This document shows positions 4,719 through 40,797 of a stretch of 59,467 bases of DNA, piece by piece. The stretch lies in NCBI GenBank assembly GCA_030648035.1, contig JAUSII010000092.1, positions 1-59,467 of the forward strand, written 5' to 3'. Every line of letters begins with the position of its first letter. Within the stretch, counting starts at the first letter, position 1. This stretch comes from Deltaproteobacteria bacterium (GTDB lineage: Bacteria; UBA10199; SPLOWO2-01-44-7). Under the pieces are notes generated by a model, which saw only the letters and a program-made list of their open reading frames with translations, had not been told where the DNA came from and made no database searches. Position numbers and translations under genes: made by a program.

Positions 4719-5741
4719 ATGAGTTTTTCAAAAAAAATTGCAGAGATCATGGCGGTGTCTGATTTTTCCGGGGCGAAAGTCACGGTGCTCGGTTACGGTG
4801 CCATGGGAAAAGAATATGTGAAGGCATTGCAAGCGTTGAAGGTAAAAGAGATTCTCGTCTGCTCCAGAAGCGAGGCACCCCTGAAAGAATTGCAGGGGTT
4901 CAAGGGAATCACTGTTCAAAGCGGTGGCTATGAAAATCTGAAAGCAAAGCCTCAAGAAAAGGAGTTGGTCATCATTGCCTTGCCGGTGGCCGATCTGATT
5001 CCGGCCTCAAAATTTTTGAAAGAACTGGGATATAAAAAATTTCTGATTGAAAAACCGGTCTCGCTTTATTCTTCCGAGCTTGAATCATTTTTGCATCAAT
5101 TTGAAACGCCCGGGATCAGTGCTTTCTGCGCCTACAACCGAATTGCTTATCCTTCTTTATTGGAGGCGAGAGGTTTTGCCGAAGCCGAAGGGGGTATCAC
5201 CTCTTGCCACTACACGCTGACAGAAATGGTGCGGAGCGATTGGACCGAACGGTTTTCCAAAGAAGAACTTTCGCGATGGGGGGCCTCCAACACAATTCAT
5301 GTCATCAGCATGGCGCATGCCTTGATCGGTGCTCCCAAAAGTTGGCAGGGCTCCCGCTCGGGCGACTCTCTCTCGTGGCATCCGTCGGGCACCACTTTTG
5401 TTGGGTCGGGAGTGTCGGAGAAAAATATTTTGTTTTCGTATCATGCCGACTGGTCTTCCAAGGGGCGCTGGGGCGTCGAATTTTATACCTCGAAAGCGGC
5501 ATATAGATTCTGTCCTCTGGAAAAATTATTTAGGAGAGAGGTGGCGACGAAAGATTGGGAAGAGGTTCCAATAACCACTTTTGCACCTGGAGTAAAGGTC
5601 GGTTTTGCCGAGCAGGTGGCGGCGACCTTGAATACAAATGTCCGTGAAAAAATGGGGTTCGTCTCTTTGAAAGAGGCTTATGTGTGGACACGGTTTGCGG
5701 AAGAGGTGTTCGGTTACAATGGAGAGAAAAATCATGCATAA
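4719..5741 (+). CDS. Gfo/Idh/MocA family oxidoreductase
   Basis: VTVLGYGAMGKEYVKAL; FLIEKPVSL (EKP). Confidence 0.75.
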   Translation: MSFSKKIAEIMAVSDFSGAKVTVLGYGAMGKEYVKALQALKVKEILVCSRSEAPLKELQGFKGITVQSGGYENLKAKPQEKELVIIALPVADLIPASKFLKELGYKKFLIEKPVSLYSSELESFLHQFETPGISAFCAYNRIAYPSLLEARGFAEAEGGITSCHYTLTEMVRSDWTERFSKEELSRWGASNTIHVISMAHALIGAPKSWQGSRSGDSLSWHPSGTTFVGSGVSEKNILFSYHADWSSKGRWGVEFYTSKAAYRFCPLEKLFRREVATKDWEEVPITTFAPGVKVGFAEQVAATLNTNVREKMGFVSLKEAYVWTRFAEEVFGYNGEKNHA

Positions 5742-6438
5742 AAAAGCACTGGTGACGGGTGGCACGCGCGGGATTGGCAAATGTGTGGCCAAACTTTTAA
5801 GCCAGAACGGTTTTGAAGTGACGGTGACCGGAACTTGTGCCCGTGGAGAGGCTCCCAAGGGTTGCAGTTATCTGGCCGTCGATTTTTCGGACCTCCAAGC
5901 CATCGAATTATTTGCAAAAGAGATTCAGGAAATGGGATTTTCGGTGCTGATCAACAACGCCGGTATCAACAAGGTCGGTTCCCTGTCCGATTATGAATTA
6001 AAAGATTTTCAACTCTTGCAACAGGTCAACGTGACTGCTCCGTTTCTTCTCTGTCGTGCGGTGGTGCCGGGTATGTCGAAAAGAAAATTTGGAAGGATCG
6101 TCAACATCACCTCCGTTTTCGGTGTGGTCAGCAAAGAGGGACGCTCGGCCTATTCCGCAACCAAGTTTGCATTGTCAGGCTTGACGAAAGCACTCGCACT
6201 GGAGACCGCGAAAGACAATGTGTTGGTCAATTGTCTCGCTCCCGGTTTTGTCGATACCGAATTGACCCGCGGCATTTTGGGAGAAAAAGGAATTGTTGAA
6301 ATGTCCGAAAAAATTCCGATGGGACGCCTGGCCACTCCTGAAGAGATGGCCCATTATGTTTTGTTTCTCGCCAGTGAAGAGAATACCTATATGACCGGAC
6401 AGAATGTCGTGGTCGATGGAGGATTTACCTGTGGATAA
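5734..6438 (+). CDS. SDR-family oxidoreductase (FabG-like)
   Basis: ALVTGGTRGIGK, NNAG, S..YSATKFAL, C-term GQNVVVDGGFT. Confidence 0.85.
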   Translation: MHKKALVTGGTRGIGKCVAKLLSQNGFEVTVTGTCARGEAPKGCSYLAVDFSDLQAIELFAKEIQEMGFSVLINNAGINKVGSLSDYELKDFQLLQQVNVTAPFLLCRAVVPGMSKRKFGRIVNITSVFGVVSKEGRSAYSATKFALSGLTKALALETAKDNVLVNCLAPGFVDTELTRGILGEKGIVEMSEKIPMGRLATPEEMAHYVLFLASEENTYMTGQNVVVDGGFTCG

Positions 6439-7492
6439 TGGAATAACCATTCAATCGCACAAAGGCCCGTATCGCGTGGTCTTTGGAGCTCCCTTTGCAG
6501 GTCTTGAAAAAGGTTTACAGAAGAACGAACATCTTTTGATTGATGCAAAAGTGGCCGAACTTTACAAAGAGATATTGGGACCGGCTCTGCAAGGTGCTTC
6601 GGTACTCAAAATTGCGGCGACGGAGAAAAACAAATCGCTTGAGAGAATCCCCGACTACGTCACTTTTTTGAGTGAGCATGGGGTCAAGCGGGGACATACA
6701 TTGATTGCGGTCGGCGGCGGTATTATTCAGGACACTGCGGCTTTCATCGCGGCGGTTTTGTTTCGCGGCATCTCCTGGCGCTTTTATCCCACGACCCTTT
6801 TGGCACAGGCCGACAGTTGCATCGGCTCCAAGTCATCGATCAATGTGGGGCAATATAAAAATCAGGTCGGCACTTTTACTCCACCTCAAGATATTCATCT
6901 TAGCACCGAAGTGCTGGAGACTCTGGAGGAGGCCGATTTTCGTTCCGGCATCGGCGAAATTTTAAAAGTCCATCTGATCGCCGGATGGGAGGACTTCAGG
7001 CCTCTGGCTGCGGATTATGACGGCCTCAAAAAAGACAAAACCAGACTCATGACCGCCATTCGCCGCTCCTTGGAAATCAAAAAAGCAATCATCGAAAAAG
7101 ACGAGTTTGATCTGAAAGAGCGTCTCATTTTGAATTACGGCCACAGTTTTGGACACGCGATCGAGAGCGCCACGCAATACGGCGTGCCGCACGGTCTGGC
7201 GATCACCATCGGCATGGATATGGCCAACTTTGTCTCGTGGCGGTTGGGATTGATCGACGAAAAAGTCTTTGCCGAAATTCATCCGGTTTTAAGAAAAAAT
7301 TATCGCGGGTTTGAATCGTCCAAAATTCCGGAAGATTCTTTTTTCTCGGCATTGTCGAAAGACAAAAAGAATGTGGAGAACGATCTCTCTCTGGTGCTGA
7401 TGCGCGGTCCGGGAAACATCTTCAGAGATCGCTATCCCAACGACGAAAAATTCCGGTCAATCTGTCAGGAATATTTCAAAAACATTTTATGA
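6431..7492 (+). CDS. sugar phosphate cyclase-like protein (3-dehydroquinate synthase fold)
   Basis: AVGGGIIQDTAAF, PTTLLAQADSCIGSKSSIN, SGIGEILKVHLI, LILNYGHSFGHAIE, PHGLAITIGM; GTG 6431 preceded by GGAGGA RBS. Confidence 0.75.
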   Translation: MDNGITIQSHKGPYRVVFGAPFAGLEKGLQKNEHLLIDAKVAELYKEILGPALQGASVLKIAATEKNKSLERIPDYVTFLSEHGVKRGHTLIAVGGGIIQDTAAFIAAVLFRGISWRFYPTTLLAQADSCIGSKSSINVGQYKNQVGTFTPPQDIHLSTEVLETLEEADFRSGIGEILKVHLIAGWEDFRPLAADYDGLKKDKTRLMTAIRRSLEIKKAIIEKDEFDLKERLILNYGHSFGHAIESATQYGVPHGLAITIGMDMANFVSWRLGLIDEKVFAEIHPVLRKNYRGFESSKIPEDSFFSALSKDKKNVENDLSLVLMRGPGNIFRDRYPNDEKFRSICQEYFKNIL

Positions 7493-8481
7493 TGAATATC
7501 GGCATCATCGGTTTTGGAAAAATGGGCCAGATTCGTTTTGATTCGATTCGGGCGGATGGACGGGGTTGTGTCGTCGGCATTCATGAACCGCACCAGAATG
7601 TTTTTCTTCCGGAAGTGCGCATGTATGCCACGTCGTCCGAGTTGATTGCCGATCCCAATATTCACGCTGTCTTTGTCTGCACTCCCAATTATCTGAATTT
7701 GCCCCTGACGATTGAGGCGCTCAAGGCGGGCAAGCATGTTTTTTGTGAAAAACCCCCTGCGTTTTCTGCGGCGGAGGTGGAACAGATCATGGTGGCGGAA
7801 AAAAACTCGAATGGCAAAAAATTGATGTATGGTTTTAATCATCGCCATCACGACAGTATCAAAAAGGCCAAAGAATTGATCGATTCGGGAACCTATGGGC
7901 GCATTTTGTGGATGCGCGGGCGATATGGCAAAAGCGTCGACAAAGATTTTTACAACGACTGGCGTTCCAAAAGAGAATTCGCAGGGGGCGGCATTCTGAT
8001 GGATCAGGGCATTCACATGCTCGATCTTTTCCTTCATTTGGCCGGTGATTTTGACGAGGTAAAGGCCTTTGTTTCCAATCTTTATTGGAAGCTGGATGTC
8101 GAAGACAACGTTTTTGCAATGCTACGAAACAAGCAGGGAGTGGTGGCCTCGCTTCATTCCAGCATGACGCAGTGGCGGCACCTCTTTTCGCTGGAAATAT
8201 TTTTGGAGAAGGGCTACATCGTCATCAACGGACTTTTGACATCGTCGGGAACTTATGGCGAAGAAGTAATGACCGTGGCCAAAAACAGAACCAAAGCCCC
8301 GATGGCCACATGGGATGATGAAGAACATATCCGTTTTAATGTGAATAACTCGTGGCACTACGAGATGACACATTTTCTGGATGCAATGATTGAAAACAAG
8401 CCGATTCAGACCGGTAATTCGGCTGATGCATTAAAGTTGATGCGGATTATGGACAAAATTTATTCACAAAACGAAGCCTAA
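7489..8481 (+). CDS. Gfo/Idh/MocA family oxidoreductase
   Basis: IGIIGFGKMGQIR, FCEKPPAF, GGGILMDQGIHMLDL. Confidence 0.85.
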   Translation: MMNIGIIGFGKMGQIRFDSIRADGRGCVVGIHEPHQNVFLPEVRMYATSSELIADPNIHAVFVCTPNYLNLPLTIEALKAGKHVFCEKPPAFSAAEVEQIMVAEKNSNGKKLMYGFNHRHHDSIKKAKELIDSGTYGRILWMRGRYGKSVDKDFYNDWRSKREFAGGGILMDQGIHMLDLFLHLAGDFDEVKAFVSNLYWKLDVEDNVFAMLRNKQGVVASLHSSMTQWRHLFSLEIFLEKGYIVINGLLTSSGTYGEEVMTVAKNRTKAPMATWDDEEHIRFNVNNSWHYEMTHFLDAMIENKPIQTGNSADALKLMRIMDKIYSQNEA

Positions 8482-8493
8482 GAGGAGACTGTC

Positions 8494-9063
8494 ATGAACA
8501 GAGATGAAGAAAAAAAGTGGTTGTCAGAATATTTCGATTTATATCAGCAGGCCATTTTTGCAACCGATGTTCGCAAAGAGCTTCTGGAGGTAAAGGAGCT
8601 GTTTCAAAAGTGCCATGGTCAGGGCAAAAAAATCATCTTCATCGGAAACGGTGGGAGTGCCGCGATGGCGAGCCATTGCGCGGTCGATTTTACCAAGAAT
8701 GCCGGCGTCCGCTGTATCAATTTCAATGAAGCGGATCTGATCACCTGTTTTGCCAACGATTTCGGTTATGAGAAATGTTTTCAAAAGGCGCTGGAATTTT
8801 ATGCTGATGCCGGAGACGTGGTGGTGTTGGTCAGCTCCAGCGGAAAGTCGGCCAACATTTTGCGCGCTGGCGAATATGCAAAAGAAGCGGGCCTGACGTT
8901 GGTGACGTTGACCGGTTTTGGAGCCGACTCTCCCCTGGCCGCGCTCGGCAACATCAACTTGTCTCTTAATAGCCGGGCCTACAATGTCATCGAAATGGTC
9001 CACCAAATCTGGTTGTTGGCTATCTGTGATCTGATCATCGGCAAAGCGGAGTATCCGGCCTGA
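8494..9063 (+). CDS. SIS-domain protein, sedoheptulose-7-phosphate isomerase (GmhA)-like
   Basis: IIFIGNGGSAAMASHCAVDFTKN...VLVSSSGKSANILRA. Confidence 0.8.
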   Translation: MNRDEEKKWLSEYFDLYQQAIFATDVRKELLEVKELFQKCHGQGKKIIFIGNGGSAAMASHCAVDFTKNAGVRCINFNEADLITCFANDFGYEKCFQKALEFYADAGDVVVLVSSSGKSANILRAGEYAKEAGLTLVTLTGFGADSPLAALGNINLSLNSRAYNVIEMVHQIWLLAICDLIIGKAEYPA

Positions 9064-9065
9064 TC

Positions 9066-9749
9066 ATGACCCAAGCCATTTCAAAATTTGCCGCACTGGT
9101 GCCCATGAAAGGACATTCGGAGCGGGTTCCCAACAAGAATTTGCGCCTTTTTGGGAAAAAGCCCCTCTATCATCATATTGTTGGTACTCTTTTGCAATGC
9201 CCCCATGTCGATTGTGTCTACATTAATACCGACAGCCCGCAGATCGCATCGGATGTTGCTCAAAATTTTAAGGACCGAGTTCGTCTGATTCAGAGACCCA
9301 AAGAAATCTGCGGTGATTTTGTCTCCATGAATGTGGTGATCAATCATGACCTGTCGCAGGTGGAAGGAAAATATTTTTTGCAGACCCACAGCACGAATCC
9401 GCTTTTAAAACCCGAAACAGTCACTCGTGCGATTGAAACTTTTTTGAGCCATCCAGAGTCGGATTCTCTCTTTGGCGTCAACCCGTTTCATGGCCGATTT
9501 TACGATGCAAAAGGAGATCCCATCAATCATAATCCCGAAGAGATGTTGCGAACGCAGGACTTGCCGCCTCTTTTCGAGGAGAATTCCAACTTGTATCTTT
9601 TTTCGAGGGAGTCTTTTATTAAAACAGGACGAAGAATAGGAAAGCGTCCGATCTTGCACCCCGTTTCCAAACTTGAGAGCATTGACATCGATACCGAAGA
9701 AGATTTTAAACTGGCGACGTTTGTTTATGAATACCTCAAAACAACTTAA
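9066..9749 (+). CDS. acylneuraminate cytidylyltransferase family protein
   Basis: ALVPMKGHSERVPNKNLRLFGKKPLYHHIV...SIDIDTEEDF. Confidence 0.85.
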   Translation: MTQAISKFAALVPMKGHSERVPNKNLRLFGKKPLYHHIVGTLLQCPHVDCVYINTDSPQIASDVAQNFKDRVRLIQRPKEICGDFVSMNVVINHDLSQVEGKYFLQTHSTNPLLKPETVTRAIETFLSHPESDSLFGVNPFHGRFYDAKGDPINHNPEEMLRTQDLPPLFEENSNLYLFSRESFIKTGRRIGKRPILHPVSKLESIDIDTEEDFKLATFVYEYLKTT

Positions 9750-10503
9750 AGAAAAAATAAAGAGGGGTGAGGTCACGGTCGGCTCCTGGCTGACGATTCC
9801 CAGCCCCGAAATAGCCGAGGTGATGGCCGGTCTCGATTTCGACTGGTTGACGATCGATTTGGAGCATTCTGTGATCGACTTCTCCACGGCCCAGGCGATG
9901 ATTCGCGCCATCGACTTGACGGGAAAGGCACCGCTGGTGCGCGTGGGGGTGAACGATCCCACCATTATAAAACGGGTGATGGATGCAGGGGCACACGGTG
10001 TCATTGTTCCAATGGTCAACTCGGCCGCAGAAGCAGAGGCCGCTGTATCTGCCGTCAAATATTCGCCGAAGGGGACCCGGGGGGTGGGGCTTGGTCGCGC
10101 GCAAGGATACGGAACCGCGTTTGAAAAATATAAAGGCTGGGTGAATGAGGGGAGTGTCGTGATTGTCCAGATTGAGCACATTCAGGCGGTAAAAAATATT
10201 GAGGAGATTTTATCGGTCGAAGGGGTAGACGGATTCATGGTCGGTCCCTATGATCTTTCCTCTTCGCTTGGAGTGCCCGGTGAATTTCAGCATCCGGAAG
10301 TTTTGAAGGCGATGGATAAAATCCGTTCGGCCTTCGACAAGTCCAAAGCTCTCCCCGGCTTTCATGTGATTGCCCCCGATCCGAATCAGGTCTTTGATAA
10401 AATCAGGGAAGGTTTTCGTTTTATCGCCTACAGCCTTGATACTTTGCTACTGGCAGAAACTTGCAAAGCGGGTCTTATGAAGATCCATTCGTTCCATCGT
10501 TAA
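9727..10503 (+). CDS. HpcH/HpaI aldolase family protein
   Basis: GSWLTIPSPEIAEVMAGLDFDWLTIDLEHS; GAHGVIVPMVN; GLGRAQGYG; VDGFMVGPYDLSSSLGVPG. Confidence 0.9.
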   Translation: MNTSKQLKEKIKRGEVTVGSWLTIPSPEIAEVMAGLDFDWLTIDLEHSVIDFSTAQAMIRAIDLTGKAPLVRVGVNDPTIIKRVMDAGAHGVIVPMVNSAAEAEAAVSAVKYSPKGTRGVGLGRAQGYGTAFEKYKGWVNEGSVVIVQIEHIQAVKNIEEILSVEGVDGFMVGPYDLSSSLGVPGEFQHPEVLKAMDKIRSAFDKSKALPGFHVIAPDPNQVFDKIREGFRFIAYSLDTLLLAETCKAGLMKIHSFHR

Positions 10504-10509
10504 TCCATA

Positions 10510-11505
10510 ATGAAAAATCCGATTAAAATTGCTGTTTATGGAACCGGAAGTATCGGCATGCGTCATCTTGAGGTGTTAAAGAGCATGGAAGGGATTGAAC
10601 CAATTGCAATTTCGAAGAGGCCCGGGAGATTTAAAAATCTTGAGGATATGGGATACAAGACCGCTCCCGATTTAGAGTCGGCGGCCAGGCTGGGTGTCGA
10701 ACTCTGCATTGTGGCGACCGACACCGCCTGCCATCTTCAAGACGGGCTTTGTGCCCTGGAATTGGGGATGGATGTTTTGATGGAAAAACCTCTCGCCAAA
10801 AATAGTTTGGAGGGTGCCGATCTGTTGAAGGCCTCCAAAAAAATGAAAAAAAAGATTTTTGTAGGGTGTGTGTTGCGGCAGGCTCAAGCCCTGAATATTT
10901 TTTGCGAGAAATTGCCTCAAGTCGGCAAAATTCATTCGGTCCATATTGAGTGCCAGTCCTATCTCCCCGATTGGAGAAAAGACCACCCCTATCGTGATTC
11001 TTATTCGGCGCGCAAAGAAGAAGGGGGCGTCTTGAGAGATCTGATCCACGAAATTGATTATGCCGGATCTATTTTTGGTTGGCCGGAAAAGTTGGAGGGG
11101 CATTTGGCGAATCTTGGAGTCTTGGGGATTGAGGCCGAAGAGAGAGCTGACTTGAGATGGGAAACAAAAGAAGGGGTGAGTGTTTTAATTTGCCTTGATT
11201 ACCTGACGAGAGTCCCCAGAAGAAAAATGAGGGCTTGTGGTGAAAAGGGAACTATCACATGGGACGGTATTCAAAAGACGGTTTTGCTGACGATCATTCA
11301 TCAAGATCCTCAATTGTTTGAAGCCCCCGAAGAAAACAATGCTCTCTATGCAAAACAGGCGATGGCTTTTATGGAGGCCTGTTTGCAGGGGAGTGCCACA
11401 AAGCTCGCAGACGGTGAGGAGGGGTTCAAAGCACTGGCCATCTGCGATGCGGCACGGTTGTCGTCACAATCACAAAAAACAGAAGTGGTTCATTATAAAA
11501 ATTAA
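10510..11505 (+). CDS. Gfo/Idh/MocA family oxidoreductase
   Basis: IAVYGTGSIGMRHLEVL; LMEKPLAKN; EGGVLRDLIHEIDYAGSIFG. Confidence 0.85.
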   Translation: MKNPIKIAVYGTGSIGMRHLEVLKSMEGIEPIAISKRPGRFKNLEDMGYKTAPDLESAARLGVELCIVATDTACHLQDGLCALELGMDVLMEKPLAKNSLEGADLLKASKKMKKKIFVGCVLRQAQALNIFCEKLPQVGKIHSVHIECQSYLPDWRKDHPYRDSYSARKEEGGVLRDLIHEIDYAGSIFGWPEKLEGHLANLGVLGIEAEERADLRWETKEGVSVLICLDYLTRVPRRKMRACGEKGTITWDGIQKTVLLTIIHQDPQLFEAPEENNALYAKQAMAFMEACLQGSATKLADGEEGFKALAICDAARLSSQSQKTEVVHYKN

Positions 11506-11509
11506 TTTT

Positions 11510-12157
11510 ATGCAAACGCTGATCGATATTTCGGTCCCCATTACTGAAAATATGGCCGTCTGGCCGGGTGCTCCCAGGACGGAGATCGGCTTTCGGCGTT
11601 CGATGGCGAAGGGGGACAAAAGCAACAACAGCAATCTTTTCATGAATTGCCACACCGGCACGCATGTGGATGCTCCGTTGCATTTTGTGGCGGATGGCAC
11701 TGCTGTGGAACAGATGTTGCTCGACAGCATGATTGGAGAGGCCTTTGTTGTCGACCTGTCAGCCCATCCAGAAATTGAAACCGATGATTTGGAAAAATTG
11801 TGGCCCCGTCGTCCGGTCAAGCGGGTATTGCTCAAGACAAGAAACTCCGCTTTATGGGAAACCAGAAGTCACGAGTTCGTAAGCGATTATTGTGCCTTGT
11901 CTCAAAAGGCCGCAGAATGGTTTTTGGAAAAAAGAGTGGCCTTGATTGGCATCGATTACCTCTCCATTCAAAAATTTGGCGATTCCCCGATTGTTCACGA
12001 ACTTCTTTTGAGCGCCGGGGTTGTGATTTTGGAAGGGATCAATTTGTCTGATGTGAACCAGGGATTTTATGAACTTTTTTGTCTTCCTCTGAATCTGGTC
12101 GGCGCGGAAGGCGCCCCGGCGCGGGCTGTTTTAAAATATACCGGAGAACCTATATGA
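11510..12157 (+). CDS. cyclase family protein (kynurenine-formamidase-like, PF04199 type)
   Basis: IDISVPITENMAVWPG...NCHTGTHVDAPLHF; real start ATG 11510. Confidence 0.8.
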   Translation: MQTLIDISVPITENMAVWPGAPRTEIGFRRSMAKGDKSNNSNLFMNCHTGTHVDAPLHFVADGTAVEQMLLDSMIGEAFVVDLSAHPEIETDDLEKLWPRRPVKRVLLKTRNSALWETRSHEFVSDYCALSQKAAEWFLEKRVALIGIDYLSIQKFGDSPIVHELLLSAGVVILEGINLSDVNQGFYELFCLPLNLVGAEGAPARAVLKYTGEPI

Positions 12158-13209
12158 CTTTAGACAACTCCCCCATTGTGCGCGAGGGACAGCTTCTCGA
12201 AAGAGCCATCTTTGTCGGAGGGTTGGGTGGGTGCGGAAAAACAATGCTGACGGCGATCATCGGTGGCTTTGACCGGGTGGAGATACAAAAATACAACTAT
12301 GTGATTGAAAATATATGCACCTTGCATCGGCTGGGCAAAGTGGGTGATGACGTGGCCTTTGCCATGATCCGGATGCAGACTGATCTCGACATTTATAACA
12401 TGATGATGTCGAGAGAGACAAATTTCAGATTCAGCGATTTGTCTTCTGTTTTTAAAAATCCCGGCAAATGGCGCTATTTCCGCCGCCTTTTTCAGGCCGG
12501 TGATGATGCCATTGTGGATCGGGTGAAAAATGAGCGCCCCATTTTGCATATCACCTTTCATGATCTGCTCCAGCACAGTCATCCTCTCTTGAAAGCGCTG
12601 GGCGAAAAGGCGAGGCTGTTGGAGCTGGTTCGGCACCCTTTGTATATGATCAAACAATGGTATAAAAATGTTGAGCAGTTCTACGACAACACTTTTAATC
12701 CGAGAGAATTTTCCATCCGCTTTCTTTATAAACAAAATTCTCTCCCCTGGTTTGTTTCGGGATGGGAAGAGGAATATTTGAAGATCACCAACAAAATGGA
12801 CCGGGTGATTTATATGATGCGCCATCATATTGAGGAGAGCAAACGATGCTATGAGGCGCTTTCCGAAAATGAGAAAAAACAGGTGATGATTATTTCTTTT
12901 GAGAATTTTGTCAAAAATCCGTGGGCCGACTTGGAAAAACTGGAGCATTTTCTGGACTCCAAAGTGACGAAGCGGACCTTGAAAGAATTGAAGAGGCAAA
13001 ACATTCCCCGAAAAATGCTGGCAGACGGGATCAACCTGAAAGTGTATCGAAAATACGGTTGGAAACCCTCTGATAAAAGACTTGGCGAGGCTGGGGAGCT
13101 TCAGGAAAGACGAAATTTTGCCGAAGAAAGAGCCAGCAGTGAAGGGATGCGCGTTTTGGACGCAATGTCAGCAAATTATGAAAAGGAATACTTTGACAGA
13201 AAAATCTAG
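12154..13209 (+). CDS. sulfotransferase family protein
   Basis: AIFVGGLGGCGKTML PAPS-loop-like motif; LLELVRHPLYMIKQWY. Confidence 0.65.
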   Translation: MTLDNSPIVREGQLLERAIFVGGLGGCGKTMLTAIIGGFDRVEIQKYNYVIENICTLHRLGKVGDDVAFAMIRMQTDLDIYNMMMSRETNFRFSDLSSVFKNPGKWRYFRRLFQAGDDAIVDRVKNERPILHITFHDLLQHSHPLLKALGEKARLLELVRHPLYMIKQWYKNVEQFYDNTFNPREFSIRFLYKQNSLPWFVSGWEEEYLKITNKMDRVIYMMRHHIEESKRCYEALSENEKKQVMIISFENFVKNPWADLEKLEHFLDSKVTKRTLKELKRQNIPRKMLADGINLKVYRKYGWKPSDKRLGEAGELQERRNFAEERASSEGMRVLDAMSANYEKEYFDRKI

Positions 13210-13210
13210 A

Positions 13211-13936
13211 ATGTTGGCGGTGATTCCTGCAAGAGGGGGCTCCAAAGGTTTGCCAGGGAAAAATATCCGCCCCTTTTCCGGAATTCCGCTGATTGCCCAT
13301 TCCATTTTAATGGCCAAGATGGCTCCAGAAATTGATCGGGTCATTGTGAGTACGGATGATGCGAAGATTGCCGAGGCGGCGAAAAAATTTGGCGCTGATC
13401 TTCCTTTTATGCGCCCGGCAGAATTGGCAAAAGATGACACTCCGATGTGGCCGGTACTTCGCCACGCACTTCAAATGGTGGAAGAAGGGAATGAAAAATT
13501 CAAATATCTTTTGCTTCTCGATCCGACTTCGCCTGGGAGAATTCCCGCAGATATTACCGGTGCGCTGGAAAAATTGGAGCAAAACCCGGACGCCGTCGGC
13601 ATCGTCGGTGTTTCCAAGCCTGAATTCAATCCGATTTGGCATTGCGTGGTGGAAAAAGAGGGGTGGATGGAACTTTTGATAAAGGGGGGTGGTAGCGCTT
13701 ATGGCCGTCGTCAGGATGTCCCCCCCGTCTATCGGATCAACGCTTCGTTGTATATATGGAAAACCTCTTTTATCCGTCAATGCAGTGAAAATTGGCTTGA
13801 AAATGGGAAGCATCTTCTTTATGAAATTCCGGAAGTCCGTGCTATCCACATTGACGATCTCCACGAATTTGAGCGGGCGGAGTTGCTTCTTAAACATAAT
13901 TTGATCTTTTTTCCATGGCTGACACAAACACTTTAA
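13211..13936 (+). CDS. acylneuraminate cytidylyltransferase (NeuA/LegF-like)
   Basis: MLAVIPARGGSKGLPGKNIRPFSGIPLIAHSI; LLLDPTSPGR. Confidence 0.85.
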   Translation: MLAVIPARGGSKGLPGKNIRPFSGIPLIAHSILMAKMAPEIDRVIVSTDDAKIAEAAKKFGADLPFMRPAELAKDDTPMWPVLRHALQMVEEGNEKFKYLLLLDPTSPGRIPADITGALEKLEQNPDAVGIVGVSKPEFNPIWHCVVEKEGWMELLIKGGGSAYGRRQDVPPVYRINASLYIWKTSFIRQCSENWLENGKHLLYEIPEVRAIHIDDLHEFERAELLLKHNLIFFPWLTQTL

Positions 13937-14853
13937 ATCTGTCTATTCCGTTCAAAGTTTCTCTTCCGCGAAGAATTCTGAAAAGAATTCGGGATGGGGG
14001 ACTTTTCAAATTTATCGTTTACACGTTTTTATTCCGCATCCTCGGTGATTCAAAAATAAGAAACCGGATGATCCGTTTTTTCAGGATGTGTGCGACCCGT
14101 TTGGGCATTTCGCAATGGGCCACACGAGTCAATGGTGTTCGAATATGGGTGGATCCCCGTGATTTTTGGGTCATGCGTGAATATGTTCTCAAGCCCAGAT
14201 ATAATCACGAAGAGATTGATCTGGTGCGTCGGTTGATACCACGCACGTTTGATATGATTGATATCGGTGCCAATTACGGGGTTTGGTCCTTTTCTTTGGA
14301 GAGTCATTTTTCAAAGATTTTTCTTATTGAGCCCAATCCGGATTGTGTGCGGTGCATTCAGAAAACGATAGCCGATCATCAATGGCCCCACCTTCGATTT
14401 GTTCCCGGAGCTTTGTCGGACAAAGACGGGGAGACCCTCTTTTTCCCCTCCAAAGATCATGCCGCTGATGGCAGAATTTATGATGCCAAAGATACCGGTC
14501 GTATGGGTGGCCTCTCTGTCAAGACGTTCTCTTTTGAAACATTTATTCGGGAATGCCGGTTAAAAAATCCCCGTCTGTTTATTAAAATGGATGTTCAGGG
14601 AGCGGAGCCCGGCATCATAAAAGGGATTGCCCCATTATTGGCCATATCAAAGGACATCCTTTTATACAGCGAATGTCAGGATGACATATTAAGATCGGCC
14701 GGATCCAGTGCGGATGAATATTTTGATCTTTTGAGCCGGTTTAATATAAAGCCGGTGGATGCTTTGGATTCTTTCAAAATAAAAGACTGGGCTTTTGCCA
14801 AAAATCTTGTTGCTCAAAAGAAAGCAAATTTATGGTTCCGATATCAGGCATGA
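13915..14853 (+). CDS. FkbM-family methyltransferase
   Basis: MIDIGANYGVWSFSLE...LIEPNPDCVRCI...LFIKMDVQGAEPGIIKG. Confidence 0.8.
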   Translation: MADTNTLNLSIPFKVSLPRRILKRIRDGGLFKFIVYTFLFRILGDSKIRNRMIRFFRMCATRLGISQWATRVNGVRIWVDPRDFWVMREYVLKPRYNHEEIDLVRRLIPRTFDMIDIGANYGVWSFSLESHFSKIFLIEPNPDCVRCIQKTIADHQWPHLRFVPGALSDKDGETLFFPSKDHAADGRIYDAKDTGRMGGLSVKTFSFETFIRECRLKNPRLFIKMDVQGAEPGIIKGIAPLLAISKDILLYSECQDDILRSAGSSADEYFDLLSRFNIKPVDALDSFKIKDWAFAKNLVAQKKANLWFRYQA

Positions 14854-15587
14854 AAACAATCCAACAACTCATGAATTTGAAAGGCCGCAAAGCCCTGGTG
14901 ACAGGGGGCAAGGGATTTATTGGAAGGGCCGTTTGCGAAACGCTTCAAGAACTGGAGGCCCAGGTCAAAATTCTGGATCTTCCGGAATGCGATTTAAAGG
15001 ATGAAAAAGCCACGCGTGATTTTGTGCAGAACGCCATCACCGAAATGAAGGGGCTCGACATATTGATCCACTGCGCCGCTTATGTCGGGACCACAAAGCT
15101 TCCCGGGTGGTCGTCTCCGTTTGAAGAACAGACCGTCAAAGCATGGGATGAGGCTTTGCGGGTGAATGTGACCTCCGCTTTTGTTGCGGTGCAGGAAGCC
15201 AAAAAAGCGCTAGAGGCCTCCGGGTGCGGTTCAGTTATTTTATTTAATTCCATTTACGGCGTTGTCGGTCCCGATATGCGTTTGTATGAAGGGACCGAGA
15301 TGCACAATCCGGTGGCTGGGGGTGTTTCAAAAGGAGGGTTGCTTCAATTGAGCCGTTACCTGTCAACGATACTGGCCCCCAAAGTTCGTGTGAATACGAT
15401 TTCGCCAGGGGGTGTCTGGAGAAAACAGCCGGAGGGTTTTCAGGAACGTTATGTCGCGCGCACGCCCTTAAAAAGAATGGCTACCGAAGAGGACATGAAA
15501 GGGGCTGTCGCCTATCTGGCCAGTGATTTGTCACGTTACGTTACCGGCCATAATCTGATGGTCGATGGAGGGTGGACAACATGGTAG
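14850..15587 (+). CDS. SDR-family oxidoreductase
   Basis: KALVTGGKGFIGRAV; GHNLMVDGGWT; ATGA overlap. Confidence 0.8.
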   Translation: MKTIQQLMNLKGRKALVTGGKGFIGRAVCETLQELEAQVKILDLPECDLKDEKATRDFVQNAITEMKGLDILIHCAAYVGTTKLPGWSSPFEEQTVKAWDEALRVNVTSAFVAVQEAKKALEASGCGSVILFNSIYGVVGPDMRLYEGTEMHNPVAGGVSKGGLLQLSRYLSTILAPKVRVNTISPGGVWRKQPEGFQERYVARTPLKRMATEEDMKGAVAYLASDLSRYVTGHNLMVDGGWTTW

Positions 15588-16747
15588 CAACGCCATATCG
15601 GATTCTGCTGGTGTCCAGCACCCGTGCCGATCTCGGCTATTTGCGGTTTGTCATCAAGGCCCTGCAAAAAAATCCGAATTTTAAAATTATTGTGACGGCC
15701 ACTTGCATGCATCTGGCTGCCTCTTCTGGAAAGACCATTCGTGAGTTTGAAGAGTTGGGCATTGAGGTGGATGAAAAGGTTGAGATGCTCCTCGATTCTG
15801 ATTCTCCCGCCGGTATCGCCAAATCAATGGGTATGGGCATTCTGGGCTTTGCTGATCTCCTCGATCGGGTTCGGCCGCAGGCGGTGATGGTCATGGGAGA
15901 TCGCTTTGAAATTTTGTCGGTCGCCGCCGCATGTCTCCCTTTTGCAATTCCGGTCATTCATTTTTCGGGAGGTGATCTCACGGAAGGGGTGATCGATGAT
16001 GCCATTCGTCACGCGGTCACCAAACTGAGTCATTTTCATTTTCCGGCAACAGAAGTGCATGCAAAACGTTTGCAACAAATGGGAGAGGAATCGTGGCGCA
16101 TTCGTGCGGTGGGCGAGCCCGCTCTCGAATTCTTAAGTCAGGAAACGCTTCTGACAAAAAAAGAATTGGAAAAAGATCTGGGATTTGCATTGGAGGATTC
16201 CACTCTGTTGGTGACCTTTCATCCAGAGACACTCGAAGCGGGAGACTCAAAGAGGCAAGTGGCCATTCTCACCCAAACCCTCTCCAAACTGTCTCTCCCG
16301 ACCATTATCACCGGTCCCAATGTCGACACCGGTTCTTCCGTCATTCGCGAAACGCTCAAAAATTTTGCAAAACAAAATCCGAAGACCCTTTATGTGGAAA
16401 ATCTTGGGCACAAAAGATATTTGAGTCTTTTGCAGTTTGTCGGTGCCCTGCTTGGAAATTCCTCGAGTGGTATTGTGGAGGCACCTTCTTTTTCACTTCC
16501 GGTGGTCAACCTTGGAACGCGGCAGAATGGGAGAATCAAGGGGGTCAACATTATCGATACGCCGATTGAAACAGAACGGATCATGTCTGCGGTGGAAAAG
16601 GCTCTCTCCGGGGACTTCAAAAAAACCCTGGTGGGGATGCAAAATCCCTATGGCGATGGCAATACCAGCGCTCGTGTTGAGGAAGCCCTGCTGGAATGGA
16701 TCCCCCGTTCTGCTGAAGCACTGCACAAGAAATTTACAGAAAAGTAG
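15581..16747 (+). CDS. UDP-N-acetylglucosamine 2-epimerase (hydrolysing), NeuC/LegG-like
   Basis: ILLVSSTRADLGYLRFVIKAL; VMVMGDRFEILSVA; IHFSGGDLTEGVIDDAIRHAVTKLSHFHF. Confidence 0.85.
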   Translation: MVATPYRILLVSSTRADLGYLRFVIKALQKNPNFKIIVTATCMHLAASSGKTIREFEELGIEVDEKVEMLLDSDSPAGIAKSMGMGILGFADLLDRVRPQAVMVMGDRFEILSVAAACLPFAIPVIHFSGGDLTEGVIDDAIRHAVTKLSHFHFPATEVHAKRLQQMGEESWRIRAVGEPALEFLSQETLLTKKELEKDLGFALEDSTLLVTFHPETLEAGDSKRQVAILTQTLSKLSLPTIITGPNVDTGSSVIRETLKNFAKQNPKTLYVENLGHKRYLSLLQFVGALLGNSSSGIVEAPSFSLPVVNLGTRQNGRIKGVNIIDTPIETERIMSAVEKALSGDFKKTLVGMQNPYGDGNTSARVEEALLEWIPRSAEALHKKFTEK

Positions 16748-16754
16748 TTCTTTC

Positions 16755-17831
16755 ATGCAATCAAAAATCCTCGATTTGAAACAGAGTGACACATGGGCCG
16801 CTTGCCTGGCAGAGTTTCCACGCGACAGGCAGGAACTTTTTTTCACACCCGGCTGGTATGAGGCCTTTGAACAAAAAGGGGATGGCAAAGCCCTCTGTTT
16901 TGTTTTTGAAAAAGAGGGAGATGTGGCCCTCTATCCTTTTTTGATGAACGATATAGGCCGTTATGACCCCGACTCTGTCATGGGGCGTTATTTTGATATT
17001 GAAGGAGCCTATGGCTACAATGGCGTTCTGGCGACGACGGCTTCCCCCTCTTTTGTCGGCCCCTTTCAAAAACATTTTCTGGAATTTTGCAGAGAGAGCC
17101 GCATTGTTGCCGAGTTCACCCGCTTTAATCCGGTTTTGAAGAACGAAGTCGTCTCCGATTATATGAAGATCATCCCTGTGAACGATAACATCATCGTCGA
17201 TCTGAAAATGTCTGAAGAAGATCTCTGGTTAAAATCCTATGACTATGCCGTGCGAAAAAGTGTCAACAAGGCGAAGAGAAATAATCTGAAAATGGTCGTC
17301 TCTGATGGTTGTACGGTCGCCTCCGGCGGTTATTTGGAGCAGTTTTTATCCATTTTTCATTCCACTCTGGACAGAAACCAGGCCACTCCGGAGAGCTATT
17401 TTGATCTTCATTATCTGCAAACTTTGAATAAAAATCTGGGTGAGAAGGCCCTCTATTTTTTCGCTCTGCTGGAGGACAAAGCCGTTTCGGCGGAACTGGT
17501 CCTTTTGTCTCCCAAAGGGGGCTATTCTTTTTTGGGCGGCACCCTTGCAGAGGCCTATGACTTCCGGCCCAATCATTTTTTGAAAGATCATCTGATCCGC
17601 CGGCTCAAAAAAAACGGCAAAGAATATTATTGTATCGGTGGCGGAAAAAAACGGGGGGATGGTATTTTCAAATACAAAAATTCCTTCGCGACAGATGGGG
17701 CACATCCTTTTTATATCGGCACCAAAGTGCATGATGAAGCAACCTATCATGACATTTGCAGTCGTTTTGCGGCAAGAAATCCGGAAAAAGCAGAACGCAA
17801 CAAAGATCTGATCTTCAAATATAAATTATAG
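16755..17831 (+). CDS. GNAT/FemAB-like acyltransferase
   Basis: YAVRKSVNKAKRNNL...YDFRPNHFLKDHLIRRLKKNGKEYYCIGGG...IFKYKNSFA; ATG 16755. Confidence 0.6.
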   Translation: MQSKILDLKQSDTWAACLAEFPRDRQELFFTPGWYEAFEQKGDGKALCFVFEKEGDVALYPFLMNDIGRYDPDSVMGRYFDIEGAYGYNGVLATTASPSFVGPFQKHFLEFCRESRIVAEFTRFNPVLKNEVVSDYMKIIPVNDNIIVDLKMSEEDLWLKSYDYAVRKSVNKAKRNNLKMVVSDGCTVASGGYLEQFLSIFHSTLDRNQATPESYFDLHYLQTLNKNLGEKALYFFALLEDKAVSAELVLLSPKGGYSFLGGTLAEAYDFRPNHFLKDHLIRRLKKNGKEYYCIGGGKKRGDGIFKYKNSFATDGAHPFYIGTKVHDEATYHDICSRFAARNPEKAERNKDLIFKYKL

Positions 17832-17839
17832 GAGAAATT

Positions 17840-18508
17840 ATGGCACCCTTTGATCCAACGTGGGAGGAAGTTTATCAAAATACCGGTTTCGGCGGCGGCT
17901 ATCCCGATCTGGAGTTGGTCCGCTTTGTGGCGAGAAATCTGTATTCAAAAGACCGCGCCTCAACCCGCATTCTGGAGGTCGGTTGCGGGGTGGGGGCCAA
18001 CTTGTGGTATCTCGCACGAGAGGGTTTTGATGTGACCGGACTCGATGGCTCCGCGACTGCGATCAAAAAATGTTCGGAGAGATTTAAAACACAGAATCTG
18101 AAAGGACATCTGGTCGTGGGAGATGCCTGTGCTCTTGATTTTCCCGATCATTATTTTGATGCCGTGGCCGATATCGAGTGCATCTATGCCAATACCTTGA
18201 GCGACATCCGCAAAATTTTAGGCGAGATCCATCGCGTCTTGAAACCCGGTGGACATTTTTTCTCGATGATGTTTGCCACAGAAACGCATGGATATGGATT
18301 GGGCAAAGAATTGGAGCCGAACACTTATGCCGAAATTCCAAACAGAATATTCGGGGGCCGCGGAATTGCCCATTTTTTTACCGAACCGGAAGTGAAAACC
18401 ATTTTGGAAGAGACCGGTTTCAAAAAGAGTGAAGTCAATTTTCTGTTTCGCTCCGAAAAACATCAGGGAGAACTCATCAAAGAATGGATCGTGCAGGCAC
18501 AGACATGA
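17840..18508 (+). CDS. class I SAM-dependent methyltransferase
   Basis: ILEVGCGVGANLWYLAREGFDVTGLDGS; HRVLKPGGHFF. Confidence 0.85.
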   Translation: MAPFDPTWEEVYQNTGFGGGYPDLELVRFVARNLYSKDRASTRILEVGCGVGANLWYLAREGFDVTGLDGSATAIKKCSERFKTQNLKGHLVVGDACALDFPDHYFDAVADIECIYANTLSDIRKILGEIHRVLKPGGHFFSMMFATETHGYGLGKELEPNTYAEIPNRIFGGRGIAHFFTEPEVKTILEETGFKKSEVNFLFRSEKHQGELIKEWIVQAQT

Positions 18509-19596
18509 AATATATTGGCGGTGATCTGGAGTTGGATCTGGATTACTTGAAGGCTCCCAAAACGGGTGGGGCGGAGTCCTTTTTTCATCTTGAAATGGCC
18601 CATGATTTTGTCTGGACCAGTCTCGGAGTGGATGCCTTGGCGCTGGCCCTCATCAATGAAGGGTTTGAAGCTGGTGATGAAGTCTGTTTGCCGGCCTATA
18701 ACTGCATGAAAGTGGCCGATGTGGTCGAAAATCTGAAAGGAGTTTGTCGGTATTATCCTGTCGCAGAAAATCTTCAGGTTTCTGCCGACGCACTTCTTGC
18801 GGAGGTTACGGAAAAAACGAAGGCGGTGATTTGGGTCAATTACTTTGGATTTTCAAAAACAGATTTTGAACTTTTGCAGGCCATCCGGGCGAAAAACAAA
18901 AATACGGCGATCATACTCGATTTTGCACAGGCCCTCTTTTCCATCGATAAAAAAATATTACAGAGTCCCTGTGTCGATTATATCGCAACCAGTTTTAGAA
19001 AATCACTCCCGGTTCCCGATGGGGCTCTGCTGATCTCCAATCACAAAAAAATAGATCGAAGGCATTTAAGTCCCTCGGTAAGGGGAATGGTTTGGGAGCG
19101 GGCGGCCGCAAAAATTTTCAAAGGGGTCTGGTTGAAAGAGGGTGGAAAATCGGAAGCGGCGGAAAAATTCTGTCTGGAATTGATCCATCATTCCGAAACC
19201 GCACTCGATGCGGGACAAAATTTGAGTGTCTCTTCCCGCCTTTCCCTCGAATATATTGAGAGAACCGATTTTGACACCATCGCCAAAAAAAGAAGAGAGA
19301 ACGCCCGTTTTTTATATCAACATCTGGATCAGAGTCTTTTTCTGTTTGATTTCGATTCTTCGGTTGTCCCTCTGGTCATCCCCATTTCGATTCCAGAAAG
19401 GGACCGTGTCAGGGTCGAGCTGATGCAGTCCCGTATTTTTCTTCCGGTCCATTGGCCCCTGGATGGGCGCATTGATAAACAACGTTTTGCGGCGGCCCAT
19501 CGGATGAGCGGCTCTCTCCTTGGCCTTGTTGTTGACCAGCGTTATGGAATGGAGCATATGCAATATCTGGTGGATGCGTTGAAAAAAATATTATGA
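18505..19596 (+). CDS. DegT/DnrJ/EryC1-like PLP-dependent protein
   Basis: ALALINEGFEAGDEVCLPAYNCMKVADVV; ATSFRKSLPVPDGALL putative PLP-Lys segment. Confidence 0.65.
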   Translation: MKYIGGDLELDLDYLKAPKTGGAESFFHLEMAHDFVWTSLGVDALALALINEGFEAGDEVCLPAYNCMKVADVVENLKGVCRYYPVAENLQVSADALLAEVTEKTKAVIWVNYFGFSKTDFELLQAIRAKNKNTAIILDFAQALFSIDKKILQSPCVDYIATSFRKSLPVPDGALLISNHKKIDRRHLSPSVRGMVWERAAAKIFKGVWLKEGGKSEAAEKFCLELIHHSETALDAGQNLSVSSRLSLEYIERTDFDTIAKKRRENARFLYQHLDQSLFLFDFDSSVVPLVIPISIPERDRVRVELMQSRIFLPVHWPLDGRIDKQRFAAAHRMSGSLLGLVVDQRYGMEHMQYLVDALKKIL

Positions 19597-20630
19597 ACTG
19601 GTTTGAAACCCTTCAAAAAACGTCCAGACCCTATCTCATTGCCGAGGCGGGGGTGAATCACAACGGGGATATCCGCCTGGCGCATGAGCTGATTGATGTC
19701 GCCAAAGCGAGTGGGGCCGATGCAGTCAAGTTCCAGACGTTTGTCACTGAAAATCTGATGTCGCCATCCGCCCCTCTGGCCGATTATCAGAAAAAATCGG
19801 GGGAACTTTCCCAGTTTGAAATGGCCAAACAGCTGGAACTCTCTTTCGATGATTTTATAACACTCAAAAAATATGCTGAAAAACAGGGGATCACGTTTCT
19901 GTCAACCCCGGATGAGGAAGAGAGTCTTGAATTTCTTGTCTCTCTCAATCTTGAGGCGATCAAGGTCGGCTCCGGAGAGTTGACAAATCTCCCTTTCCTG
20001 CGTCTGATCGCCAAAGCGAACAGACCCGTTATTCTCTCCACCGGGATGTCGACTCTGGTGGAGATTGAAAAGGCTGTCTCGGCCATCCGGAGTTTGGGCA
20101 ATCATCAGATCGTTCTGCTCCACTGTGTTTCGGAATATCCGGCCCCGTTTGCCGATGTGAATTTGAAAGCGATGCAGACGATGCGGGAGACCTTTCAGCT
20201 TCCGGTCGGTTTTTCGGATCACACTTTGGGTTTTTCGGTTTCTCTCGCGGCGGCGGCGCTTGGGGCCTCTGTCATTGAAAAACATTTCACTCTGGACAAA
20301 TCGATGAAGGGTCCCGATCATGCCTGCTCCCTGGAACCCTCCGAATTAAAAGCCCTGGCCGATGGGTTAAAAGAAATAGCACTGGCCATGGGCAATGGCA
20401 TAAAAGTTCCAGCACCCTCGGAGTTGAAGAACAGGGAGGTTGTTCGCAAAAGTATTGTCGCCAAAAAAGATATTTCCGCCGGAGAGGTTCTCACAGAACA
20501 TCATTTTGCGTTCAAAAGATCGGGGGGCGGGATTGAACCCTCCGATGCCGACAAATTGATCGGCTTGAAATTGAAAAAAAATATTAAAAAAGATTCCCCT
20601 CTGGAATGGAGCCTTCTGGAACATGTCTGA
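19593..20630 (+). CDS. N-acetylneuraminate/legionaminate synthase (NeuB/LegI-like) with SAF domain
   Basis: LIAEAGVNHNGDIRLAHELID; VKFQTF; HCVSEYPAP; VGFSDHTLG; EKHFTLDKSMKGPDH. Confidence 0.92.
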   Translation: MNWFETLQKTSRPYLIAEAGVNHNGDIRLAHELIDVAKASGADAVKFQTFVTENLMSPSAPLADYQKKSGELSQFEMAKQLELSFDDFITLKKYAEKQGITFLSTPDEEESLEFLVSLNLEAIKVGSGELTNLPFLRLIAKANRPVILSTGMSTLVEIEKAVSAIRSLGNHQIVLLHCVSEYPAPFADVNLKAMQTMRETFQLPVGFSDHTLGFSVSLAAAALGASVIEKHFTLDKSMKGPDHACSLEPSELKALADGLKEIALAMGNGIKVPAPSELKNREVVRKSIVAKKDISAGEVLTEHHFAFKRSGGGIEPSDADKLIGLKLKKNIKKDSPLEWSLLEHV

Positions 20631-37689: not shown

Positions 37690-38457
37690 ATGACGTTGAA
37701 GAAAAAAATCAGAAATCGCGACATCGTTTTCGGTGCCTGGACTTCGTTGGCTCATCCGCAGATCACCGAGATGTTCGCCTCCATTATGAAGCCCGACTTT
37801 ATAGGCATCGATATTGAACACAGCACGATTAATCACGGAGAATCTCAAAGAATCATTGCGGCAGGACAAGCCGCCGGGGTTCCGGTTTTGCCGAGAGTCG
37901 CCTCGCACAACGGCGAACAGATCCGCCGTCTTCTCGATTCAGGCGCCGACGGTCTCATTGTCCCGATGGTGAACACGGTCGAAGAGACAGGGCAGATCGT
38001 CAACTGGTGCAAATATCCCCCGGTGGGTAAAAGAGGTTTCGGCATCGCGCGCGCACAAGGATACGGCGCCACGTTTGCGGAATATACCTCCATTTGGAAT
38101 GAGAAATCAGTTTTGATGATCCAGGCCGAATCGATTCAGGCGGTTGAAAATATCGACAAGCTCCTTGAAAATGAGCAGGTCGATGGCGTAATGGTCGGAC
38201 CCTACGACATCTCCGGCTCTCTGGGAATCCCCGGAAAACTGACCGACCCCAAAGTGGTCGCGGCGAGCAATCGCGTGGTGGACGCCTGCAAACGCCACGG
38301 CAAGGCCTGTGGCACACAGATTACCGAACTCCCCGACGCAGAAAAAATCGGCAAGGCAGTCGATGGTGGTTACACATTTATTGTTCTGGCCTCCGATATT
38401 TTTCTTTTCTGGCACTGGTCGGCACAGATGAGACAACTCAAGGAGAAATTTTTATGA
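37690..38457 (+). CDS. HpcH/HpaI aldolase family protein, paralog of 9727-10503
   Basis: GAWTSLAHPQITEMFASIMKPDFIGIDIEHSTI; GADGLIVPMVN; GIARAQGYG; VDGVMVGPYDISGSLGIPG. Confidence 0.9.
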   Translation: MTLKKKIRNRDIVFGAWTSLAHPQITEMFASIMKPDFIGIDIEHSTINHGESQRIIAAGQAAGVPVLPRVASHNGEQIRRLLDSGADGLIVPMVNTVEETGQIVNWCKYPPVGKRGFGIARAQGYGATFAEYTSIWNEKSVLMIQAESIQAVENIDKLLENEQVDGVMVGPYDISGSLGIPGKLTDPKVVAASNRVVDACKRHGKACGTQITELPDAEKIGKAVDGGYTFIVLASDIFLFWHWSAQMRQLKEKFL

Positions 38458-39221
38458 ACACGCCGATACTGACACTGGAAGATCGATTTCGGTTGAAGGA
38501 AAAAGTGGCGGTCGTCATCGGCGGGGCTGGTTTTATCTGTTCCTCTCTGTCGAAGGCCTTTCTCGAATCGGGAATGAAAGTGGCGATTCTCGATCAGGCC
38601 AAAGAGCCTCCGGCCGATCTCTCCGGCAGAGTTCTTTTTTTAAGCGTCAACGCCACCTCCAAAAGCGATTTGCTGGCCGCCCGTGAAACAGTGCTCAAAG
38701 AATATGGAAGAGTCGATCTCCTGTTGAATGGCATCACCGCCAACGCACCGACACCTTTTTTGGAAATCGGCGAAGAGGAGATGGACCGGATTTTGGGTGC
38801 CAACGTCAAAGCGGTCGTTCTGGCCTGCCAGGTGTTTGGAGAAACGATGGTGAAAAATAAATCGGGGAGCATTATCAATTTTGCCTCGGCCTCTTCGGGG
38901 CCGCCGCTCTCCAAAGCCTTCATCTATTCCGCCGCCAAGGCTGGCGTGATGAACATCACTCAAAATCTGGCGCGCGAGTGGGCGCCATTCAATGTGCGCG
39001 TGAATGCATTGCGGCCCGGGTTTTTTCCGACCGAGTGGAGTTTGAAACATTTTATCGATGAAGAACGCAAAGCAAAGATCATGGGCCACACGCCAATGAA
39101 GCGCTTCGGCAAACCCGAAGAGCTGGTGGGGGCTGCGCTCTGGCTCGCCTCTGATGCGGCATCGTTTGTGACCGGCTCCATTGTCTCCATCGACGGTGGA
39201 TTTACCGCAATGACGATATGA
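38454..39221 (+). CDS. SDR-family oxidoreductase (mannonate/fructuronate reductase-like)
   Basis: VAVVIGGAGFICSSLSKAF; YSAAKAGVMNITQNLAREWAP; GSIVSIDGGFTAM. Confidence 0.8.
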   Translation: MNTPILTLEDRFRLKEKVAVVIGGAGFICSSLSKAFLESGMKVAILDQAKEPPADLSGRVLFLSVNATSKSDLLAARETVLKEYGRVDLLLNGITANAPTPFLEIGEEEMDRILGANVKAVVLACQVFGETMVKNKSGSIINFASASSGPPLSKAFIYSAAKAGVMNITQNLAREWAPFNVRVNALRPGFFPTEWSLKHFIDEERKAKIMGHTPMKRFGKPEELVGAALWLASDAASFVTGSIVSIDGGFTAMTI

Positions 39222-40734: not shown

Positions 40735-40782
40735 CGAAGCAATCCCGGGATTGCCACGGCCCCTTTGGGGCCTCGCAATGAC
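40719..40782. repeat. GTCATTGCGAG-type interspersed inverted-repeat element
   Basis: GTCATTGCGAG (40719-40729) / CTCGCAATGAC (40772-40782), enclosing palindrome GCAATCCCGGGATTGC (40739-40754) and hairpin GGCCCC-TTT-GGGGCC (40758-40772). Confidence 0.85.
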
Positions 40783-40797
40783 AGTGAAGGAAATTTT

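Follow-up and report, generated by a model that had tools for sequence, protein, structure and literature searches.

A DHQS-like gene and its dehydrogenase partner

The window, meaning the whole stretch of 59,467 nucleotides (nt) analysed here (contig JAUSII010000092.1 of assembly GCA_030648035.1, from a Deltaproteobacteria bacterium of the GTDB lineage Bacteria; UBA10199; SPLOWO2-01-44-7), carries a glycan island with a gene at 6431-7492 whose product resembles 3-dehydroquinate synthase (DHQS, AroB). This gene, referred to below as the cyclase gene, is intact; it runs from a GTG at 6431 to a stop at 7492, encodes 353 amino acids and overlaps the end of the upstream short-chain dehydrogenase/reductase (SDR) gene (6438) by 8 nt. 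The product matched both DHQS halves in Pfam (DHQ_synthase, 1.8e-32; DHQS_C, 1.6e-31), and the top fold matches of its AlphaFold model (pLDDT, the model's confidence score, 92.5) were DHQS crystal structures. These results agree with an original prediction, made from the sequence of the window, of a DHQS-fold cyclase gene in a glycan island. The zinc ligands that it had pointed out were all present, namely E176 (in SGIGEILK), H238 (in NYGHSFGH) and H254 (in PHGLAI), as was the altered motif GSKSSIN in place of GGKTGIN of AroB.

When compared with curated protein families, the cyclase scored 461.1 bits against NCBIfam TIGR04425 over residues 7-351, above the curated cut-off of 400, and 256.4 bits against TIGR01357 (aroB), under the cut-off of 305. 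By its sequence, the product is a further member of the already named TIGR04425 family ('AroB-related putative sugar phosphate phospholyase (cyclizing)' in NCBIfam), which has no assigned substrate. No paper naming TIGR04425 was found in the open-access literature, and nothing usable was retrieved on a glycan DHQS-like gene, on quinic acid in O-polysaccharide or on the family itself.

Placement among sugar-phosphate cyclases

In a tree of 42 cyclases, all 17 TIGR04425 rows fell on one side of a single branch with a long stem and 100/100 support, separate from AroB, the sedoheptulose 7-phosphate (S7P) cyclases, EboD and 2-deoxy-scyllo-inosose synthase (DOIS). The cyclase of the window was located neither within the AroB clade nor within the S7P-cyclase clade. 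Together with the missed aroB cut-off, this bears out the earlier view of a sugar-phosphate cyclase distinct from AroB. The cyclase and AroB have in common the fold, the zinc ligands, the GGG motif for binding nicotinamide adenine dinucleotide (NAD) and a complete substrate pocket (see below), but the TIGR04425 protein is only about 29% identical to AroB, shows GSKSS and GGGIIQD where AroB shows GGKTG and GGGVIGD, pairs with an SDR in glycan islands and belongs to a family that coexists with a true aroB in other genomes. The S7P cyclases, such as 2-epi-5-epi-valiolone synthase (EEVS) and desmethyl-4-deoxygadusol synthase (DDGS), and EboD share with it the superfamily, the zinc ligands and the phosphate-site Lys and Asn, yet they belong to another clade and lack most or all of its Lys/Arg/Asn/His/Lys set; the median identity of the S7P cyclases to the cyclase was 22%. 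Searches of plasmid and phage collections, some matches from which served as reference sequences, returned only matches of about 27-38% identity, mostly annotated as AroB, S7P cyclase or DOIS.

The substrate pocket

The pocket for 3-deoxy-D-arabino-heptulosonate 7-phosphate (DAHP) in Staphylococcus aureus DHQS is formed by D130, K136, N146, E178, K181, K221, R235, N239, H242, H246 and K314 (PMC6262012). These positions were mapped onto the cyclase through a HMMER alignment with the S. aureus structure, and all 11 were identical (D128, K134, N144, E176, K179, K217, R231, N235, H238, H242 and K313). Whereas TIGR04425 retains 46 of the 72 columns conserved in AroB, it retains all 11 pocket columns (hypergeometric P 0.004), and 10 of the 11 residues were invariant across 21 diverse members. 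In contrast, S7P cyclases keep six of the 11, and the five residues lost there (Lys to Met; Arg to Lys, Ala, Glu, Ser or Asp; Asn to Asp or Ala; His to Pro; the distal Lys mostly gone) are exactly those that the cyclase retains. In DOIS, which shares superfamily and fold, the Arg264 and Asn268 sites (Aspergillus nidulans numbering) are occupied by Gly and Glu, whereas the cyclase has Arg231 and Asn235 there. Further, a TIGR04425 profile matched DHQS structures in the PDB with 188-261 bits, DOIS with 183 and ValA with 153, the ValA and DDGS (5tpr) structures being the weakest matches.

In A. nidulans DHQS, Arg264 and Lys250 hold the substrate carboxylate. With this role, the retained pocket suggests a DAHP-like keto-acid phosphate as the substrate, rather than S7P. 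Pocket conservation thus points to DAHP-like carboxylated sugar phosphates as the probable substrate class of TIGR04425.

Conservation of the SDR-cyclase pair

An SDR gene was found directly upstream of the cyclase gene, on the same strand and overlapping or abutting it, in all 26 loci compared, the window included, which come from several phyla. SDR distances correlated with cyclase distances (Spearman 0.59, Mantel p 0.001), while co-inheritance with the cyclase was not detectable for the SIS-domain protein (Spearman 0.07) or for KdsB (-0.09). This constant pairing is a strong association. Cyclase homologues were present in records of Nitrospiraceae, Rhodospirillales, Betaproteobacteria, Coxiellaceae, Thermoleophilia, Smithella, Dehalococcoidia, Cloacimonadota and Pelagibacteraceae. 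Among sampled genomes, centre genomes included, TIGR04425 was detected in 5 of 46 from the phylum of the window and in 5 of 399, 5 of 396 and 3 of 400 from three other phyla, one of these 18 lying slightly under the family cut-off.

Within about 10 kb of the cyclase in the 25 other loci, Gfo/Idh oxidoreductases occurred in 20, some cytidine triphosphate (CTP) transferase in 19, SIS proteins in 18, a SerA-like dehydrogenase in 16 and HpcH in 8; a KdsB-like gene stood together with the cyclase in 8. NeuB and HpcH belong to enzyme types that form 2-keto-3-deoxy acids. In the diverged loci L089 and L092 the SDR-cyclase pair adjoins NeuB, and in L090, also diverged, a distant HpcH lies directly upstream of the pair. 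Since the comparison covered cyclase-bearing loci only, the associations of HpcH, NeuB and CTP-transferases with the cyclase are suggestive only.

Neighbouring genes in the island

The genes around the cyclase are listed in Table 1. Those between 5737 and 11505 form a contiguous run of SDR, cyclase, Gfo/Idh, SIS, CTP-transferase, HpcH and Gfo/Idh genes.

Table 1. Genes of the window considered in this work, with coordinates and supporting matches
Feature	Coordinates	Strand	Evidence
Gfo/Idh or Shikimate_DH-like Rossmann oxidoreductase, directly upstream of the SDR	4719-5741	+	Pfam Shikimate_DH 3.1e-7
SDR oxidoreductase, cyclase partner	5737-6438	+	YxxxK and TGxxxGIG motifs; Pfam adh_short_C2 1e-51
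TIGR04425 protein with sugar-phosphate-cyclase fold (DHQS-like)	6431-7492	+	GTG start, 353 amino acids; TIGR04425, pocket and fold
Gfo/Idh/MocA oxidoreductase, distantly IolG-like	7489-8481	+	Pfam 1.3e-29; IolG model TIGR04380 116.6 bits (cut-off 355)
SIS-domain protein, GmhA-like but under the GmhA cut-off	8494-9063	+	TIGR00441 (gmhA) 82.7 bits (cut-off 209)
CTP_transf_3 cytidylyltransferase, PseF-like	9066-9749	+	Pfam 2.5e-25; PseF 90.7 bits (under cut-off 205.7)
HpcH/HpaI pyruvate-type aldolase	9721-10503	+	Pfam PF03328 1.9e-40
Second Gfo/Idh oxidoreductase	10510-11505	+	Pfam 4.6e-11; also in syntenic Nitrospiraceae loci L002 and L003
Second HpcH/HpaI aldolase, with two SDRs and a KdsB-like gene	37690-38457	+	HpaI 132 bits (under cut-off)
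KdsB-like ulosonate cytidylyltransferase (cytidine monophosphate, CMP, type)	39976-40734	+	NCBIfam NF003952 208.6 bits (cut-off 193)
SerA-like D-2-hydroxyacid dehydrogenase	40801-41736	+	PGDH 205 bits (under cut-off)

The original prediction had placed the cyclase two genes from a GmhA-like SIS protein and between Gfo/Idh proteins resembling inositol dehydrogenase. The position of the SIS gene is as described, with the IolG-like Gfo/Idh gene lying between. The flanking holds for the downstream side; directly upstream stands the SDR gene, and the Gfo/Idh-like gene lies one gene further upstream. L002, L003, L009 and L070 have such an oxidoreductase at the corresponding position. No inositol-dehydrogenase model was matched at its cut-off, and the link of the SIS protein to GmhA proved weak: relative to phosphoheptose isomerase structures (5ltz), the window copy has Asp and Leu at the sites of the catalytic Glu and His of GmhA; the SIS homologue of L069 retains the His. 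With its score under the GmhA cut-off and these residues altered, the SIS protein gives no evidence for an S7P route.

Elsewhere in the window, a second set at 37690-42173 comprises an HpcH aldolase, two SDRs, a KdsB-like transferase, a SerA-like dehydrogenase and an FdtA/WxcM-like cupin, and most of these families accompany the cyclase in other genomes. NeuC/NeuB-type genes lie at 15572-16747, 19593-20630, 51009-51995 and 58430-59467. A NeuC (412 bits, cut-off 236) and a NeuB (455 bits, cut-off 400) score above the NCBIfam thresholds, and two further genes among the four are NeuB-like. Several nonulosonic acids are therefore probable products of the island. Many genes of the 4719-20630 region are also found near the cyclase in two Nitrospiraceae metagenome-assembled genomes (L002 and L003), most at 43-69% identity: Gfo, SDR, cyclase, Gfo, CTP-transferase, Gfo, a sulfotransferase-like gene, SDR and NeuB. 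This likeness suggests that a large block of glycan genes passed from one phylum to another.

Dehydroquinate synthase across genomes

The cyclase was the only PF01761 protein found in the 96%-complete genome of the window, which also encodes a chorismate synthase (AroC), an adjoining AroA-like gene and a type I-beta-like DAHP synthase. An archaeal-type DHQS, considered as the missing AroB, was ruled out, as PF01959 had no match in 13 genomes, that of the window included. However, two genomes of the same family (G004 and G005) and an incomplete one (G001) encode a DAHP synthase and a chorismate synthase but lack both AroB and TIGR04425. The gap in G004 and G005 makes the lack of a DHQS a family trait that the cyclase gene does not explain. 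Conversely, G026 has TIGR04425 but neither chorismate synthase nor a DAHP synthase of the family found in the window's genome; G021 and G022 have, besides TIGR04425, another gene that matches better and is of the DHQ synthase or AroB-like kind, and 10 of 12 more distant TIGR04425-bearing genomes have a further DHQ-synthase gene. These relatives argue against the cyclase being the AroB of the cell; as no other was found in the genome of the window, a dual role there is conceivable. The original prediction had named placement within true AroB, in a genome missing the chromosomal aroB, as evidence that would count against it. Half of this applies: aroB is indeed missing here, but the protein does not fall within AroB.

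As a related observation, the genomes G000 (L093, L100), G001, G004 and G005 of this family all have DAHP synthase and chorismate synthase and no recognisable DHQS, either bacterial (PF01761) or archaeal (PF01959), G000 and G002 having only TIGR04425.

Proposed role and alternative explanations

The fold, the separate clade, the complete DHQS pocket, the constant SDR pairing and the conserved cassettes are shown by the analyses, and from them we infer a substrate, a product, an order of steps and a destination. In our preferred reading, to which we give an even chance, the cyclase is a DHQS-type enzyme that acts on a 3-deoxy-hept-2-ulosonate 7-phosphate, is coupled to the SDR and feeds a surface-glycan pathway. 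It would be a zinc- and NAD-dependent ring-closing phospholyase with DHQS-like chemistry, in which a ring carbon would be oxidised by NAD, the 7-phosphate eliminated, the carbon re-reduced and the carbocycle closed by an internal aldol reaction. The substrate would most likely be carboxylated, either DAHP or a stereo- or amino-variant of it. DAHP synthase could supply it, as could an island enzyme of the NeuB or HpcH type. The resulting ring ketone would most likely be acted on by the translationally overlapping SDR, while the Gfo/Idh, SIS, SerA-like and CMP-transferase enzymes may modify or activate the product or ulosonic acids assembled alongside it. A surface glycan would in this way receive a carbocyclic residue similar to quinate, or one derived from it. 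A more specific version, which we consider doubtful, is a glycan-dedicated second shikimate-like route spread over several phyla, in which NeuB or HpcH would make the 3-deoxy-2-ulosonate 7-phosphate, TIGR04425 would cyclise this compound into a carbocyclic alpha-hydroxy acid, the SDR would reduce the ketone and a KdsB- or PseF-like enzyme would activate the quinate-like (carba-ulosonic) product for the glycan.

Several points weigh against the preferred reading. No TIGR04425 member has an established activity, and pocket residues are no proof of a substrate. Some members carry His instead of Lys at position 179 of the window protein, and close to the pocket the family has substitutions of its own (Q100, S133 and F118 for Gly, Gly and Gln, and others), which mark it as not a plain AroB and imply that the substrate may differ in unpredicted ways. 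HpcH or NeuB was found, by a wider search, in only 16 of the 25 loci, several of the NeuB genes standing at a distance of 8-10 kb, and these enzymes may belong to pathways for other sugars. Finally, the proposed route leaves the need for the SIS and SerA-like proteins unexplained.

The original prediction favoured an S7P cyclase, EEVS- or DDGS-like, that makes a C7 cyclitol or carba-sugar. The shared superfamily and the conserved GmhA-like SIS and IolG-like Gfo/Idh neighbours speak for it, but the protein falls outside the S7P-cyclase clade, keeps the full DAHP pocket, including all five residues lost in those enzymes, and matches ValA and DDGS structures least, and its SIS neighbour scores under the GmhA cut-off and is missing the catalytic His. 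We therefore consider this unlikely, and the EEVS/DDGS route was rejected as leading idea on the pocket residues and the tree. What stands is a sugar-phosphate cyclase other than AroB that is kept in glycan cassettes and plausibly makes a carbocyclic product; the way there through S7P is not supported. That the cyclase is instead the organism's own aromatic-pathway DHQS, displaced into the island and working there alone or besides a glycan role, would fit its complete DAHP pocket and its being the sole PF01761 protein beside DAHP synthase, AroA-like and AroC genes, with no archaeal-type DHQS. The separate clade, the constant SDR and glycan-gene partners and the patterns in G004, G005, G001, G026, G021 and G022 make this quite unlikely, and a plain AroB is disfavoured by the family cut-off, the tree and the genome patterns alike.

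Ranking behind these is a cyclase for another phosphosugar, either hexose 6-phosphate, as in DOIS, or an amino- or deoxy-sugar phosphate, that would deliver an inosose-type ring to the IolG-like Gfo/Idh and an aminotransferase. The conserved Gfo/Idh neighbour, the class I aminotransferase of L005, L007, L071 and others and the changes near the pocket are compatible with it; DOIS, however, has Gly and Glu where the cyclase keeps Arg and Asn, and the family profile scores DHQS above DOIS, so we judge it improbable. An iron-containing alcohol dehydrogenase (Fe-ADH) or glycerol-1-phosphate-dehydrogenase-like oxidoreductase devoid of cyclase activity is suggested by a weak Fe-ADH match (19.5 bits, cut-off 31.3) and is most improbable in view of two strong DHQS Pfam domains, a complete DHQS pocket and zinc site and DHQS as the nearest solved folds.

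Precedent and cassette variants

A precedent for a carbocyclic sugar in an O-antigen is bradyrhizose of Bradyrhizobium. The genes for its biosynthesis were reported to be unknown, and the candidate cluster, which has 11 genes and includes a dTDP-glucose 4,6-dehydratase-like gene, was described without such a cyclase (PMC4743980). Should the cyclase product become part of a surface glycan, the glycan would contain a rare type of carbocyclic unit; were the glycan-dedicated route true, a polysaccharide would be built in part from a carbocyclic acid. The present data add to the TIGR04425 family a DHQS-type pocket, a constant overlapping SDR partner and a cassette conserved across several phyla; its function can now be tested with two proteins and few substrates, and annotating its genes as 3-dehydroquinate synthase or C7-cyclitol synthase would mislead.

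The cassettes also vary between loci. L004, L005, L007, L071 and L085 share a class I/II aminotransferase, in most cases accompanied by a second Gfo/Idh gene and a KdsB-like gene. Within this subtype, class I aminotransferase and second Gfo occur together in L004, L007, L071 and L085, with the aminotransferase also in L005, and the product may be amino-substituted. A fumarylacetoacetate (FAA) hydrolase belongs to the cassettes of L006 and L069, and in L092 a thiamine-diphosphate enzyme (12211-14022, acetolactate-synthase-like as judged by eye) adjoins the NeuB-SDR-cyclase set.

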